This document shows, one piece after another, positions 23,155 through 29,863 of a stretch of 64,000 nucleotides of DNA. The DNA lies in the NCBI GenBank assembly GCA_022571845.1, contig JACZXB010000001.1, positions 310,001-374,000 on the forward strand. The letters are read 5' to 3'. A program made the position numbers and the translations under genes. The stretch is from Candidatus Zixiibacteriota bacterium (GTDB lineage: Bacteria; Zixibacteria; MSB-5A5; GN15; FEB-12). Within the stretch, counting starts at the first letter, position 1; each line of letters starts with the position of its first letter. The notes beneath the pieces were generated by a model that saw only the letters and a program-made list of their open reading frames with translations, was not told the DNA's origin and ran no database searches.

Positions 23155-23252
23155 TTCATATTATAGATGATAGGCCGACAATTAGTACTGGGGTTTATTG
23201 GAAAGGGAATTCTTGATGACCGAAAAAGCGCTAACTGGAGGGGCGGCTTGAA

Positions 23253-24548
23253 ATGGCACAGACACTCAAAGAAAAATTAGCATCGATAATACCGGGTCTT
23301 CGCGAAGAGCGACAAGCTATACTGAAACAGCATGGCGATAAAAAGATATCCGACGTAACCATAGCCCAGGCTTTTGGCGGCATGCGCGGTATCAAAGGAC
23401 AAATATGTGATACCTCTGTCGTCAGTCCGGATGAGGGCTTAATAATTCGTGGTCAACCGGTTCTCAAATTAAAAGATAAACTTCCCGAAGAAATCTTCTG
23501 GCTGCTGGTAACTGGCTCCATGCCCTCGGCGGAGGAGGTTAAAGGCTTTCAGGACCAGCTGAGAGCAGCAGGCGAAGTACCTGCCTATATCTGGAAAGTA
23601 ATCAAGTCCCTGCCCAAGAAGTCCCACCCCATGGCTATGCTTGATACAGCTATCCTGGCTATGCAACATGAATCTGTTTTCGCAAAACAATACGCCGATG
23701 GACTCAGCAAAGCTGATTATTGGGAAGCTGTTCTGGATGATGCGATAAAGATAATTGCTACTATCCATACAATCGCTGCCGGAATCTACCGCCTCCGTTA
23801 CAAAAAAGGCGCGCTTATAGAGCCGTCTAAAAAGAATGACTGGGCGGCAAACTACGCCAAGATGCTGGGGCTGGCTCCCAAAAAAGGGCTGACTGCTAAA
23901 ATGATGCGCCTCTATCTGGTGCTTCACTCTGACCACGAAGGTGGCAATGTTTCGGCAAACGCCTGTCATGTGGTTGGCTCTGCTTTGTCTGACCCGTTTT
24001 ATGCCGTCTCGGCCGGATTAAACGGACTGGCTGGTCCTTTGCACGGACTGGCTAATCAGGAATGCCTGAAATGGGCGCTGGGTCTGATGGAAAAGTTCGG
24101 CGGCACACCGACCGAAGATCAAGTCCGCCAGCATGCCTGGGATACCCTAAACAACGGCAAAGTTATTCCCGGCTATGGTCATGCTGTTTTGAGAGTCTCC
24201 GACCCTCGCTTTGTAGCCTTTCATGAGTTCGGCCAGAACAATCTGCCCAATGACCCGGTATTTAAGACTGTTGCCACAGTCTTCAAAATTGTACCTCAGG
24301 TCTTAAAAGAACACGGCAAAGCCAAAAGCCCCTGGCCCAACGTCGACGCCGGCTCCGGCTCGATTCTTTATCATTTTGGCTTAAAAGAATTTGAATATTA
24401 TACGGTATTGTTTTCTGTCTCAAGGTCACTTGGCATGCTGGCACAGCTGATTCTGAACAGGGCGCTGGGTTCGCCAATCACGCGGCCAAAATCAGTCAGT
24501 ACTGAATGGATTAAGCAGCTGGTTGCTAAGGAATCTCTTGCGGATTGA
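23253..24548 (+). CDS. citrate synthase, mitochondrial/eukaryotic type
   Basis: A 431-residue citrate synthase that condenses acetyl-CoA with oxaloacetate. It follows the mitochondrial-type pattern, not the usual bacterial GltA: LREERQAILKQHGDKKI and GGMRGIKG near the start, then HSDHEGGNVSANA with the first catalytic histidine, GPLHGLANQECL, VIPGYGHAVLRVSDPR with the second histidine, and PNVDAGSG with the catalytic aspartate. In mitochondrial enzymes a His usually follows that Asp-Ala pair (here Gly). A strong GGAGGGG ribosome site lies 12 bases before the ATG. It converges tail to tail with the sensor kinase gene, stops touching. Confidence 0.9.
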   Translation: MAQTLKEKLASIIPGLREERQAILKQHGDKKISDVTIAQAFGGMRGIKGQICDTSVVSPDEGLIIRGQPVLKLKDKLPEEIFWLLVTGSMPSAEEVKGFQDQLRAAGEVPAYIWKVIKSLPKKSHPMAMLDTAILAMQHESVFAKQYADGLSKADYWEAVLDDAIKIIATIHTIAAGIYRLRYKKGALIEPSKKNDWAANYAKMLGLAPKKGLTAKMMRLYLVLHSDHEGGNVSANACHVVGSALSDPFYAVSAGLNGLAGPLHGLANQECLKWALGLMEKFGGTPTEDQVRQHAWDTLNNGKVIPGYGHAVLRVSDPRFVAFHEFGQNNLPNDPVFKTVATVFKIVPQVLKEHGKAKSPWPNVDAGSGSILYHFGLKEFEYYTVLFSVSRSLGMLAQLILNRALGSPITRPKSVSTEWIKQLVAKESLAD

Positions 24549-26573
24549 CTAAGATTTCGGCAGCGTCACCACAAAATTAGCGCCGCCCAGCTCACTCTTT
24601 TCCAACCTGACTTGCCCCCCCAGCTCGCGAACAATTCTATCGATAGTTGGCAGACCCAGACCGGTCCCGGATTCCTTGGTCGTGAAAAAAGGCCGGAAAA
24701 TTTCGCTGGCAATATTTTCTTCAATCCCCGGACCAGAGTCATCAAAAGAAATCATCATGCCTGATTCTGTTTTACTGGCAGAAATCACTATCTGGCCCGG
24801 CTTGCCACCTAAAGCTTCTTTGGAATTATTGTAGAAATTTGTGACCAGCTGCATCAGACTGCCTTTATCTGCAGTCAGTTTCAGGCCGTCTTCAATTCGG
24901 AAAGTCAGCTCTATGCCCAGTTGTGAGGCCTCAACTTCCAGAACTTTTATTTCATTTGAAAAGTAGTTTTTGATATCAATTTCTTCAGTCTGCTTTTGCT
25001 CTGTCTTTGCCATCGCCAGAAATTTGGTGATAATACTGTCCAGCCGCTTAGACTCAGACCTCATATTATTTGTAATACTCTGATATTCCTGCTCGTTGCT
25101 GCTCGGCTTAAATTCTGCGGCCAGACGCTGTGCCGCAATAGAAATAGCATTTAGCGGATTGCGAATTTCGTGAGCCACTCCAGCTGCCAGCTGACCCATT
25201 TCTGATAAGCGTTCGCGCCGGGCTGACTCTGTTTCAAACTCTTTTAGTTTGGTGATATCATAGAAAACAAGTATGGTTTCTCCCTCATCTTCTTCTGAAC
25301 CGCCTAATCCGGACAGAGCGATTAAAAGAACTTTCTTCTGTCCGTTTATGCTGACAGTTACTTCTGTTTCGGTCGACTTTTCACCAAGAGCTGCAAACTT
25401 GTCCAGATTCAGCCCTATTTTCCGGCTTATGTCATGCCAGCTTTTTCCGACAAGTCTCGGCATAGAAATTATGTTTTCAAAAGCAGCATTTGTCAAAGTG
25501 ATAGAGCCTTTTCGGTTAATCGCTGCCACACCGGTCTTCATCTGCTCAAAAATTCTATCCGTTACAGATTTAATCTTTTCATACTTCATTTCGCTTTCGG
25601 TTTTAATTCTGTGCGCTCTTAAAAATAGAAGTGTTGCCAGAACTAAAGCAGCCATGACTAACGTAATAATCAGGAGTCTCAGGTTATAGCCTTTTGAAAT
25701 CTCCAGATATTTTTTGAGAGACAAGCCGACCCGCAGCAGACCAAATCTGAAATCCGGCGAAGAAAACGGCCGGACCAGCTCCAGCACCTGCTCGCTTTCG
25801 AACTCAATTTCGCGATAAGAGATGGTATCAGCTTCAAGAGCTTCACTCAAAAACGGGTCAGATTCGATTGACAAGAGATTGGCGGTGCGGCGAGATGAAA
25901 AGATTATTCCTTCAAGGGCCTGGTAAATTATATACTCTACCCCTTTTTCTCTGGCCATTCCCTGCGCCAGATAGCCTATCTGGGTTTCCCGAAGAGCTTC
26001 AGCATAGAACGTAGCATCATCGACAATGACAATCACTCTCTCAAGGGCGCTGGTAATTTCAAGATAGTAGTGTACCGGCGGTTCTACGACATCACCTTCG
26101 TCTAAAAGAAGTACAAAATTATTTTCAGGGCTTTGTATAAGTTGGGCAACTTCTTCATAAATAAATTCCGGCAAGCCACTATCATGTTGGTGCGCGGCAG
26201 CTCCGGTGACTAAATTTGCCTGGTTATCAAAAATAAAAATTCCTTCGATTTGCTGGTCAAGCGAGGTCTGCCTCAGAAATTCGGAACTTGGTTCGACTGC
26301 TGTTCTTAAATTAAGTCCTCTAATGAGTTCCGCGAATCTTTGGCGAACATAATAATCTATTATCTGTTCAGATTTTATAGCGTTCTCGGCCGCCTGCGCC
26401 AGGCCTTCGGTAAACGACGCCCCCTGTGAAATGAGCAAATCAAGACTGTCCCGCCGGCTCTGTTGTACGCCCATCCAGGTCACAATCAGAATTAAAAGCG
26501 CCAGACCAATCGTCACTACCGCGATTACATTCTGATTGAATTTATAATACGATGTTCTTTGCAGTGCCTTCAC
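24549..26573 (-). CDS. NtrB-type sensor histidine kinase with PAS domain
   Basis: A 674-residue membrane kinase. Transmembrane helices at about 13-35 and 298-318 flank a periplasmic sensor region of about 260 residues. A PAS-like domain (about 335-445) precedes the dimerisation domain with phospho-acceptor H468 in AAGVAHEIRNPLNA. The ATPase domain has NFYNNSKEAL (N box), FDDSGPGI (G1) and FFTTKESGTGLGLPT (F/G2). All catalytic parts are intact. It begins at GTG and follows the upstream kinase after 42 bases, with no receiver gene nearby. The signal is unknown. Confidence 0.88.
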   Translation of the reverse strand: MKALQRTSYYKFNQNVIAVVTIGLALLILIVTWMGVQQSRRDSLDLLISQGASFTEGLAQAAENAIKSEQIIDYYVRQRFAELIRGLNLRTAVEPSSEFLRQTSLDQQIEGIFIFDNQANLVTGAAAHQHDSGLPEFIYEEVAQLIQSPENNFVLLLDEGDVVEPPVHYYLEITSALERVIVIVDDATFYAEALRETQIGYLAQGMAREKGVEYIIYQALEGIIFSSRRTANLLSIESDPFLSEALEADTISYREIEFESEQVLELVRPFSSPDFRFGLLRVGLSLKKYLEISKGYNLRLLIITLVMAALVLATLLFLRAHRIKTESEMKYEKIKSVTDRIFEQMKTGVAAINRKGSITLTNAAFENIISMPRLVGKSWHDISRKIGLNLDKFAALGEKSTETEVTVSINGQKKVLLIALSGLGGSEEDEGETILVFYDITKLKEFETESARRERLSEMGQLAAGVAHEIRNPLNAISIAAQRLAAEFKPSSNEQEYQSITNNMRSESKRLDSIITKFLAMAKTEQKQTEEIDIKNYFSNEIKVLEVEASQLGIELTFRIEDGLKLTADKGSLMQLVTNFYNNSKEALGGKPGQIVISASKTESGMMISFDDSGPGIEENIASEIFRPFFTTKESGTGLGLPTIDRIVRELGGQVRLEKSELGGANFVVTLPKS

Positions 26574-26615
26574 AGCAAAAAGATTGTCTGCTATTTTGGC
26601 AGGAGCAAGTAAAAG

Positions 26616-28565
26616 TTAAGATCTGGTGACTTGTGGTGATAGTGATACTTCAGCAGTTTTACTGCTCTCTTTAGATTTGCCCTGACTCTGCGGTAATTCG
26701 ATATAAAATGTAGTTCCGTTGGTGAAGTCATAACCGACAGATCCACCATGGGCGTCAACAATGCGGCGGCAGGTTATCAGGCCAATGCCGTGCCCTTTAC
26801 TTTTTGTTGTGAATCTTTCCACGAAAAGCTTTTCCTTTTTCTCTTCGGGAACGCCCGGGCCGTTATCATTTATTTCTATTCGAATCATGTGCTGACCATT
26901 GGTGAAGGAACTCAAGGTCCTGATTCGGATTGTCTTTTCCGTTTTACAGTCATGCAGCGCATCGCAGGAGTTAGAGAACATATTCACCAAAAGCTGCTGT
27001 AATTTGGCCGGGTCGGCATCGATAACCGGCAGCTCGGTCGATAATTCCGTGACTACATTTATGCCATAGCATCTCTTTTGCGGTTTTAAAAATGCCAGCA
27101 CATTTTCTATAATCTGATTTACGTGTATCCTGACGAACTTTACATCATCATGCTCGCTGTCGAGCAGTCCGGAAGTGTAGTTGTTAATTTTGTCGAGAGT
27201 TTTTTTCATCTGGGCGAGTTTCTGCTCAACCTTTTCCATGTTATTCTTCTTCAGAAACATCGGGATCAATTCAACATTCCCCATTAATACAGCCAGATAG
27301 TTATTGATGTCGTGGGCAATGTCGCCGGCCATCTCGCCGCGAGTATAGTTCTTGTTTAAACGAATCATCATCTGCTGAAACGTCTTACTTTCCGAGATAT
27401 CCCTGATTATAAAGAGATAGGCCGACTCGGAGCTATCGGCCACTTTTATTGGTGAAATCTTGGCGAAGGCAGGGAACAGGGATTTATCTTTTTTCCAGCA
27501 TAAAACTTCGATTCCCTTGGCTGAGGTTGATTCCGGGCTGACGCTGGTTAACTCGTCTACTGACTGGGTGAATAGTTCCTGTATGCTATGCCCTATTATC
27601 TCCTGGTCATTCTCATAGCCAAATGATTTAATCGCCTGATTATTAAAAATCATTATCTGACCGTCGGCGGAAGCAACTATCAAAGAATCAGGTGAGTTAT
27701 TGATTAGAGCTGAAAGGAATCTTTTAGAAGTAAGATTACTTCTGTTTACTTCCGAAAGCCTGTCATGGTAATGAGCAACTTCTCTGTTACTGTCATACAA
27801 TTGAGCTGACATTTCATTAAATGCTTTAGCCAGCTGCCGGGTTTCCTGATCACCCTCGGCTTCGATCTGGTAATAAATGCCCCCTTCGGCAATTTTATCC
27901 ATGCGGTTGATTATCTTGCTCATAGGCTCCTTGAACCACTTGATTAACATATAAACCGTCAACAGGGATATCAAAGTTGCTGCCAGGAAAGTCAATAATA
28001 ACGCATATTTGACGCTTCCACGATTGGAAATTAAAAGCTCATGGTTGACTGCTACTCCGATTGTAGCAAGCGTGTTTTTACGCAGTTCGAACGGATAAAA
28101 ATATCCCAGGTATTCACTTTCAGTATACAGTGGACCGATTATACCGTCTTGATTGGTAAACTTAAACGGTTCCGGGGGCAGAAGAATATTCTCTTCCTGC
28201 AGGTCCAGTTTTGAATGGTAGGAATGAACTTTTCTGTAGTTACCGTTATCATCCAATATGAACAGGTCGGCATGTACTATCCATTTTTCTGCTAGGAGAA
28301 TATCATCTGTCATTTCTCTAATTTTATCAGAAACCGGCTGATCTTTAATACTGTAAGGCTGTAAGGCAACTACCGCAGCTATCATATTGGTAGTTCTGTT
28401 CAGGCTCTGAAGAACCATAGCTTTTTGCCCTGCGAAATTTATCTCTTCTGCCGGGCTGAAGAGGATTATTACCAAAGCTGCAAAGACAAAAATAATCTGC
28501 AGAAAAATTACGTTTGTCAGACGCAGCAGCAGGCTGGGTCTTAGGAGTTTTTTAATTATAGACAT
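26616..28565 (-). CDS. sensor histidine kinase with HAMP and PAS domains
   Basis: About 649 residues from the ATG at 28565; the frame is open to a TTG at 28637, but that lies directly after a hairpin and T-run. Two transmembrane segments (about 15-38 and 186-208) flank a periplasmic sensor. HAMP (about 210-255) and PAS (about 280-395) follow. The dimerisation helix has phospho-acceptor H418 in GDIAHDINNYLAVLMGN, and the ATPase domain has NMFSNSCDAL, INDNGPGVPE and FTTKSKGHGIGL. The NNYLAVLMGN stretch resembles helices in two other proteins of the window (see findings). It is co-directional with the next kinase; no receiver gene adjoins. Confidence 0.88.
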   Translation of the reverse strand: MSIIKKLLRPSLLLRLTNVIFLQIIFVFAALVIILFSPAEEINFAGQKAMVLQSLNRTTNMIAAVVALQPYSIKDQPVSDKIREMTDDILLAEKWIVHADLFILDDNGNYRKVHSYHSKLDLQEENILLPPEPFKFTNQDGIIGPLYTESEYLGYFYPFELRKNTLATIGVAVNHELLISNRGSVKYALLLTFLAATLISLLTVYMLIKWFKEPMSKIINRMDKIAEGGIYYQIEAEGDQETRQLAKAFNEMSAQLYDSNREVAHYHDRLSEVNRSNLTSKRFLSALINNSPDSLIVASADGQIMIFNNQAIKSFGYENDQEIIGHSIQELFTQSVDELTSVSPESTSAKGIEVLCWKKDKSLFPAFAKISPIKVADSSESAYLFIIRDISESKTFQQMMIRLNKNYTRGEMAGDIAHDINNYLAVLMGNVELIPMFLKKNNMEKVEQKLAQMKKTLDKINNYTSGLLDSEHDDVKFVRIHVNQIIENVLAFLKPQKRCYGINVVTELSTELPVIDADPAKLQQLLVNMFSNSCDALHDCKTEKTIRIRTLSSFTNGQHMIRIEINDNGPGVPEEKKEKLFVERFTTKSKGHGIGLITCRRIVDAHGGSVGYDFTNGTTFYIELPQSQGKSKESSKTAEVSLSPQVTRS

Positions 28566-28638: not shown

Positions 28639-28713
28639 AAAAAAAGGGAGTGGTGGAGGGGGGATGCCCGACTCTAACGTCAGGCGGCTGGAGGTCCAGC
28701 GCACACCACTCCC
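28639..28713 (-). ncRNA. compact structured RNA / attenuator candidate ending in a U-tract
   Basis: On the minus strand a perfect 10-bp outer stem pairs GGGAGTGGTG (28713-28704) with CACCACTCCC (28655-28646). It encloses two hairpins: a 6-bp stem at 28700-28687 (GCTGGA/TCCAGC) and a 7-bp stem at 28685-28679 / 28672-28666 that includes one G-U pair. A C6 run lies in the junction. Seven U's follow immediately (28645-28639). On the plus strand the G-U pair would be a C-A mismatch, which supports the minus strand as the RNA. It sits between trxB and the sensor kinase. It could be a terminator-bearing small RNA or a leader. No match to a family I know. Confidence 0.6.
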
Positions 28714-28912
28714 ATATCTATAGAAAATCTCGAAATGAGAAAATAATCGAAATAACTGTCATATCCAGTTGCTATTCGAAAAAGGTTAGTATTGCTATCA
28801 GGAATATAACAAGTACTCTCCAATTTGGCAAGGAGAAAGTGAGGGCCGAGGCAGTATTTGCGACTAACAGAGTAAATGTAAGTCGCTATGCAAAAGAATG
28901 TTATGGAAAAGA

Positions 28913-29863
28913 TTAAACCCTTTGGGCTAATTTGTCTTCAAGTTTTTCTATATATTTTTCCGCAGCCACAGCAGCCGTGGTTGCGTCGCCGACAGCATTA
29001 GTTACCTGTCTGACCAACTGGGACCTGACATCGCCACAGGCATATATTCCTTTTACGTTTGTTTCCATAAGGTCATTCGTCAGAATATAGCCGTTTTCAT
29101 CTGTCTCAATCTGCCCTTTCAAGAGGCCTGTGTTGGGATGAAAACCTACGTAAATAAAAATTGCTCCGATCTCTAAATCAGAGTTTTCACCGGTCTTGAC
29201 ATTTTTTAGTCTAAGATTTGTAACAGACTTGTCATCGCCGATTATCGATTCCACCACCGTGTCCCAGATAATTTCTATCTTTTGGTTATCAAATGCTCTT
29301 TGCTGGATAATCTTTTGTGCTCTGAACTGGTCACGCCTGTGAATTATGTAAACCTTCGAGCCGTATTTGGTCAAAAAGGTGCCTTCTTCAACAGCGGCAT
29401 CTCCTCCGCCAACTACAGCAATTACTTTGTCTTTGAAAAAGGCGCCGTCACAGATTGCACAGTATGAGACACCTTTGCCGCTATAATCTTCTTCACCTGG
29501 GATATTGAGCTTTACGGGTGTACCGCCGGTTGAAAGGATGACTGCTTTGCTTCTGTAAACATTACCGGATTCGCAGCGAACCAAACGGTCATCTCCTTCG
29601 CAATAAATATCTGCTACTTCTTCTCTTTCAATGTCAAGTCCGAATTTTAAGGCATGATCTGTAAATTTTTTGGCCAGCTCGGAACCCAAAATATGCTCAA
29701 AACCGGGGTAGTCTTCTACGTCGCCTGTCAGCGCAATTTGACCTCCGGTCAAGAATTTTTCCAGACAGACGGTTTTACGCATGGCTCTGGCTGCATACAT
29801 TCCGGCACATAATCCGCCCGGTCCCCCGCCGACAATAATGACATCATAATTTTTTTCAGACAT
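28913..29863 (-). CDS. trxB: thioredoxin reductase
   Basis: A 316-residue flavoprotein of the low-molecular-weight type. The FAD motif is IIVGGGPGGLCAGMYAARA, the redox pair is C135-A-I-C138 in YCAICDGAFF, the NADPH motif is VVGGGDAAVEE, and the C-terminal FAD segment is GIYACGDVRS. It passes electrons from NADPH to thioredoxin in the cytoplasm. The gene follows the SDR gene by four bases. Downstream, a gap of about 200 bases leads to the structured RNA element, whose U-tract may end this transcript. Starts at ATG. Confidence 0.93.
   Translation of the reverse strand: MSEKNYDVIIVGGGPGGLCAGMYAARAMRKTVCLEKFLTGGQIALTGDVEDYPGFEHILGSELAKKFTDHALKFGLDIEREEVADIYCEGDDRLVRCESGNVYRSKAVILSTGGTPVKLNIPGEEDYSGKGVSYCAICDGAFFKDKVIAVVGGGDAAVEEGTFLTKYGSKVYIIHRRDQFRAQKIIQQRAFDNQKIEIIWDTVVESIIGDDKSVTNLRLKNVKTGENSDLEIGAIFIYVGFHPNTGLLKGQIETDENGYILTNDLMETNVKGIYACGDVRSQLVRQVTNAVGDATTAAVAAEKYIEKLEDKLAQRV

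Follow-up and report, generated by a model that had tools for sequence, protein, structure and literature searches.

The minus strand of a 64,000-nt stretch of Candidatus Zixiibacteriota bacterium DNA (assembly GCA_022571845.1, contig JACZXB010000001.1, forward positions 310,001–374,000; hereafter the window) carries a branched RNA structure conserved across the Zixibacteria. We propose that it is an autonomous small-RNA gene, giving about 68 structured bases and a U tail, whose unpaired C-rich strand would pair with Shine-Dalgarno regions. To this whole account, pairing mechanism included, we assign a probability of about one half. That the element is an RNA gene independent of its neighbours is very likely.

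Small RNAs diverge fast and can therefore rarely be traced past the family or order. Both plain blastn and a covariance model recognise the present RNA across an entire uncultured phylum, with one copy per genome and strong covariation, and it is a clean new RNA family. It is probably a core regulator, in a lineage without genetics and without detected Hfq, and with no 6S RNA found in its own genome. It provides an example, open to testing, of regulation by a C-rich RNA directed at Shine-Dalgarno sites, which would have arisen independently of the mycobacterial and rhizobial cases.

Sequence and fold of the RNA

The sequence of the minus strand from 28713 to 28639 is GGGAGUGGUGUGCGCUGGACCUCCAGCCGCCUGACGUUAGAGUCGGGCAUCCCCCCUCCACCACUCCCUUUUUUU, which comprises a 68-nt core (28646–28713) and a T7 tract (28639–28645), the presumed tail of an intrinsic terminator. 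The core folds into a three-way junction. Its closing stem is a perfect 10-bp helix of nt 1–10 with nt 59–68, in which the 5′ strand GGGAGUGGUG (28704–28713) pairs with the 3′ strand CACCACUCCC (28646–28655). Inside it lie hairpin 1 (28687–28700), with 5 bp and a tetraloop in this genome, and hairpin 2 (28666–28685), with 6 conserved bp. The outermost pair of hairpin 2 is an extra G-C in this genome, giving seven pairs, and is A-C in most relatives. The 10 nt between hairpin 2 and the closing stem, AUCCCCCCUC (28656–28665), form the single-stranded junction, a C-rich putative seed. The two hairpins have the loop sequences ACCU and GUUAGA; here, as in the relatives, the C run belongs to the junction. 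The loop of hairpin 1 varies in length and sequence among relatives.

The minimum free energy of the RNA is −39.7 kcal/mol, compared with −21.8 ± 3.2 in dinucleotide shuffles (z −5.6), and none of 200 shuffles was as low. The plus strand of the locus also folds (−36.2, z −3.9), but its ensemble is poorly defined. The original prediction described a minus-strand three-way junction with a perfect 10-bp closing stem, C6 in the junction and T7 after it, all of which the analysis reproduces. It gave the inner hairpins 6 and 7 pairs; the seven of hairpin 2 are correct, and hairpin 1 has five rather than six, since its CUGG needs a 4-nt loop. The single inner wobble pair reported there is real and corresponds to U32-G45, a position where U-G predominates in near relatives. 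The fold was also said to be specific to one strand, and this holds, in that the U-G wobbles fix the minus strand and the plus-strand ensemble is ill defined. The RNA occurs once in its own genome and is thus not a multi-copy or mobile element.

Distribution in the Zixibacteria

The 356 bases of the trxB–kinase gap were used as a blastn query against 98 related genomes, and 77 of them matched, almost always once. Except in two congeneric genomes, the matches did not extend beyond the RNA and the bases right beside it. The RNA is conserved at about 74–97% identity throughout the phylum and its flanks are not, a conservation far beyond chance.

A covariance model built from 26 copies found the RNA in 103 of 132 Zixibacteria genomes, the same set in the class and phylum searches, nearly always as a single match; among good-quality genomes the count was 62 of 78. 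The genomes represent 18 families, and the RNA is present in 14 of these. Second matches occurred in three genomes. That in G019 is antisense to the true copy, and that in G077 is cut by a contig end. The second RNA of G069 (L080:1346–1419 / L154, on contig C26) stands in a context unlike that of its trxB–kinase copy, and may be either a genuine duplicate or the product of a contaminating contig.

Three families, f3, f5 and f6, lack a detectable RNA even in near-complete genomes (e.g. G055, G058, G080, G089, G096 and G081), and a renewed search of RNA-less genomes with a broader model gave nothing above chance. The absence reflects either lineage-specific loss or divergence beyond recognition. 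Because these families are without it, the RNA is not essential throughout the phylum. Absences elsewhere concern mostly fragmented assemblies.

When 84,980 GTDB species were scanned with a sequence pattern, 93 stretches matched. Almost all of them bear the titles Zixiibacteriota, Zixibacteria or GN15, and no credible match lies outside the phylum. The pattern matches in Streptomyces, Planctomycetes, Chloroflexota, Geomonas and others were rejected as chance hits in G/C repeats, the model E value in those genomes being no better than 0.37. The Zixibacteria RNA is also carried by five contigs (L112, L124, L153, L168 and L199) that were deposited under the names Bacteroidetes, Ignavibacterium, Calditrichaeota or FCB. 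These names are probably wrong, since most such contigs checked also carry the trxB–kinase neighbourhood, among them L112 ('Bacteroidetes'), L153 ('Calditrichaeota') and L124 ('Ignavibacterium').

Covariation and the invariant strand

The structure is under selection. In an alignment of 24 diverse cores, 97.8% of the pair cells are standard pairs, compared with 88.8 ± 0.8% in shuffles. Double compensatory changes occur at 10 of the 21 pairs, and 49 cells are doubly changed against 17.6 ± 3.3 in shuffles; none of 500 shuffles reached either value. A less diverse alignment showed doubly changed pairs at 9 of 21. When the partners were shifted by one column as a sliding control, pairing fell to about 50%. 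All three helices contribute. The closing stem has 99.2% of its cells paired, and its pair 6-63 is seen as U-A, A-U, C-G and U-G. Double changes are found at 4 of 5 pairs in hairpin 1 and at 4 of 6 in hairpin 2, where 100% of the cells are paired. Covariation in homologous gaps had been named by the original prediction as the check on a small RNA; it was looked for and found, and the small-RNA reading stands. Two pairs are often U-G; the opposite strand would have A-C in their place, and the RNA is therefore a minus-strand product. A coding function was rejected, as the cores range from 60 to 77 nt, the indels are not multiples of three, and stops appear in every frame.

Every one of the 87 distinct cores counted contains C5-UCC, and CCCCCUCC in the junction strand is invariant, as is the stem base that follows. 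The regular expression behind this count itself demands C4-UCC, but it was passed by 69 of 70 loci found mostly by blastn, the remaining one being cut by a contig end. In family f2 the RNA has only one inner hairpin, hairpin 2 being absent, and yet both the closing stem and CCCCCCUCC are retained. The stem and the C run are therefore the functional core.

Comparison with known RNAs

No Rfam family matched the window at the gathering threshold, and only chance matches appeared at relaxed thresholds. 6C RNA gave no match in the region at E up to 10, and 6S RNA (RF00013) none in the whole genome of the organism (98.8% complete) at E up to 1, although controls were detected. The SRP RNA (RF00169) of this genome is encoded elsewhere, on contig C8, so that the present RNA is not SRP RNA. 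In the literature no paper on Zixibacteria non-coding RNA was found.

A close analogy is with the 6C RNA of mycobacteria and other actinobacteria; in the mycobacterial form, B11, the C-rich loops target a run of G in a 5′ UTR (PMC10470900). Like 6C/B11 (Mai et al. 2019; PMC10470900), which works without RNA chaperones, the Zixibacteria RNA is small, highly conserved and structured, with a C-rich single strand. The C runs of 6C, however, sit in two hairpin loops, whereas the Zixibacteria C run is in the junction and the loops are not C-rich. The phylum is also different, with no sequence similarity seen and no Rfam match. The RNA may work like 6C by analogy: complementarity to G tracts is present, and no target recurred among the loci examined in 24 genomes.

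The alphaproteobacterial CCUCCUCCC cuckoo RNAs (SmelA075/SmelA099 and CcsR; PMC3927594) are likewise short and structured, with an anti-Shine-Dalgarno-like C/U motif. SmelA075/099 consist of three to four hairpins with CCUCCUCCC in each loop and diverged stems (PMC3927594), and CcsR RNAs are multi-copy and accompany a DUF1127 gene (PMC10253847). The Zixibacteria RNA, in contrast, has one CCCCCCUCC, located in the junction, conserved stems and a single copy. With 6S RNA it shares a long closing stem and the character of a single-copy regulatory RNA, but it has under half the 6S length and no promoter-like central bubble, and the covariance model does not match it. By the features tested, the RNA falls outside the 6C, cuckoo, 6S and SRP families. 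Its architecture, its one-phylum distribution and its sequence appear to be new, as far as our searches and the literature searched reach.

The C-rich strand and the proposed mechanism

CCCCCUCC is complementary to GGAGGGGG, and the C run, unpaired in the fold, resembles an anti-Shine-Dalgarno sequence. We propose that the closing stem and the two hairpins would serve as a rigid frame presenting the invariant single strand AUCCCCCCUC. The RNA would act in trans, its C-rich strand pairing with G-rich Shine-Dalgarno regions (GGAGGGG type) of mRNAs, and this pairing would block ribosome binding without Hfq. No match to Hfq was found in 20 Zixibacteria genomes, though the controls were positive. 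Precedents for such a mechanism are 6C/B11 and the rhizobial CCUCCUCCC RNAs (PMC3927594).

The C-run complement alone is short and low in specificity. A search for GGAGGGGGG-N0-8-ATG sites in 24 genomes revealed no recurrent gene among the loci examined, many of the matches being the RNA gene itself on the opposite strand. Within the window, 2 of 47 genes have TGGAGGGG leaders, gltA among them.

The start of gltA (23236–23253) has an unusually G-rich Shine-Dalgarno sequence (TGGAGGGG), complementary to the C run. A G-rich leader is also found in the near relative L152, whose gltA is 95% identical, and in no more distant orthologue checked. As a conserved target, gltA (23253, GGAGGGG) was rejected, because its orthologues carry ordinary AAAGGAG-type sites.

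The main rival to Shine-Dalgarno pairing is a protein-binding role for the same independent RNA gene. The C-rich junction would then be a protein-binding or tertiary element, and the RNA would titrate or scaffold a protein, in the logic of 6S RNA or of a Csr decoy. Such a contact could explain the invariance of the C run, since this run adjoins a GC-rich stem. The near-invariant junction strand, the invariant closing stem, the single copy and the broad presence have a housekeeping-like look that suits this reading, as do the lack of a recurrent mRNA target and the negative search for 6S RNA in this genome. Against it, the RNA resembles neither 6S, SRP nor any other Rfam family, and it is not a CsrA decoy, since only some copies have GGA in a hairpin-1 loop. 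The f2 form, minus one hairpin, keeps the stem and the C run, so that the conserved part is a single strand capable of pairing. We regard the protein-binding role as possible, though the less favoured of the two. Equally tentative is the broadest form of our proposal, a phylum-defining regulatory RNA whose three-way junction would keep an anti-Shine-Dalgarno-like C strand rigid and unpaired, and which might be a global Hfq-independent regulator of translation, or a decoy for a dedicated binding protein; the searches turned up no described RNA built in this way.

Promoter-like motif and T tract

The autonomous gene that we favour would have its own promoter beside the RNA start and a terminator built from the closing stem and the U tract, and the sequences at both ends support this. 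A promoter-like TATAGA hexamer lies on the minus strand at 28717–28722, 3 nt before the stem, just where the original prediction placed it. A TAGA-type motif occurs within 24 nt upstream of the RNA in 33 of 88 copies, against 4.5 expected. GTTGTTAGA, full or shortened, at about −15 to −7 is common to families f4, f7 and f8 despite their differing upstream genes. GAAC is found at −40 to −29 (near −34) in 17 of 87 copies, compared with 0–4 in equal-size non-overlapping windows; the f4 members are related, so the GAAC and GTTGTTAGA counts are not independent. The arrangement resembles a bipartite promoter, possibly one for an ECF-type sigma factor. The organism itself has the TATAGA and no GAAC −35 element. 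GAAC-N15/16-GTTGTTAGAGAT stands upstream of the RNA in L026, L028, L032, L034, L038, L069, L075, L078, L082 and L087.

At the other end, 61–69 of 88 copies have T at any given position from +5 to +9 past the stem, as in an ordinary terminator tail; in several, such as L090, L091 and L016, the U tract is poor. The sequence immediately before the closing stem is A-rich.

The upstream sequence bears on another explanation, in which the RNA is the 3′ part of the trxB transcript, a 3′-UTR-derived sRNA freed by processing and having no promoter of its own. In f1, f2 and f4 the RNA does lie 200 nt past trxB in the same orientation, and same-strand upstream genes are common in other families as well. 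The promoter-like GTTGTTAGA, however, is kept right before the RNA in families that differ in their upstream gene, and nothing is conserved between trxB and the RNA. We consider this origin improbable.

Neighbouring genes

The upstream neighbour on the minus strand, at 28913–29863, is a trxB-like pyridine nucleotide-disulphide oxidoreductase gene (Pfam PF07992), which holds this position in f1, f2 and f4 only. Downstream is a HAMP-PAS-HisKA-HATPase sensor kinase gene, assigned by Pfam and synteny (26616–28565, minus strand), with its ATG at 28565, 73 nt past the T tract. The order trxB–RNA–kinase is confined to these three families, all of one order, where a HAMP-PAS kinase gene lies about 75–300 bp downstream in the same orientation. 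In f8 and f14 the RNA adjoins a YdjC-family gene, and in other lineages it lies upstream of uvrC. In further lineages the gene after it is convergent, encoding a SpoIIE-type phosphatase or a TonB-receptor-like protein. The neighbours change while the RNA stays, a pattern that does not match a cis leader serving a single gene.

The kinase proteins next to the RNA are just 31–52% identical outside the genus, and the RNA thus changes much more slowly than the gene beside it. Citrate synthase (gltA) is found convergent, 1.3–4.4 kb downstream of the RNA, in f1, f4 and f8, and at 6.2 kb in one copy. The persistence of this synteny indicates that the locus is vertically inherited and that the intervening genes were replaced.

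The original prediction had offered two readings, an undescribed small RNA of about 75 bases or a leader or attenuator of the kinase. The first agrees with a strand-specific, covarying structure that has no Rfam match and is single-copy throughout the phylum. The second would suit f1, f2 and f4, where the kinase follows, but it fails on the unrelated or convergent genes that come next in other lineages, on the gltA synteny that outlasts replaced kinases, and on an RNA–kinase interval that holds no conserved sequence for alternative pairing; we therefore think it very unlikely.

Just as improbable is the reading that the element merely ends trxB transcripts, as an elaborate and perhaps bidirectional intrinsic (Rho-independent) terminator. 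The GC-rich 10-bp stem stands directly before T7, with T-rich sequence after it in most relatives and A-rich sequence before it. The element is branched, however, and terminators do not conserve 68 nt, loops and junction included, over a whole phylum after the upstream gene has been swapped, nor does termination need compensatory changes in inner hairpins or an invariant unpaired C run. The sRNA may still include a terminator function.

At 24549–28565 of the window, two genes for sensor histidine kinases follow one another, with no response regulator between them. This gene pair, between the RNA and the convergent gltA, is conserved in f1 and f4.
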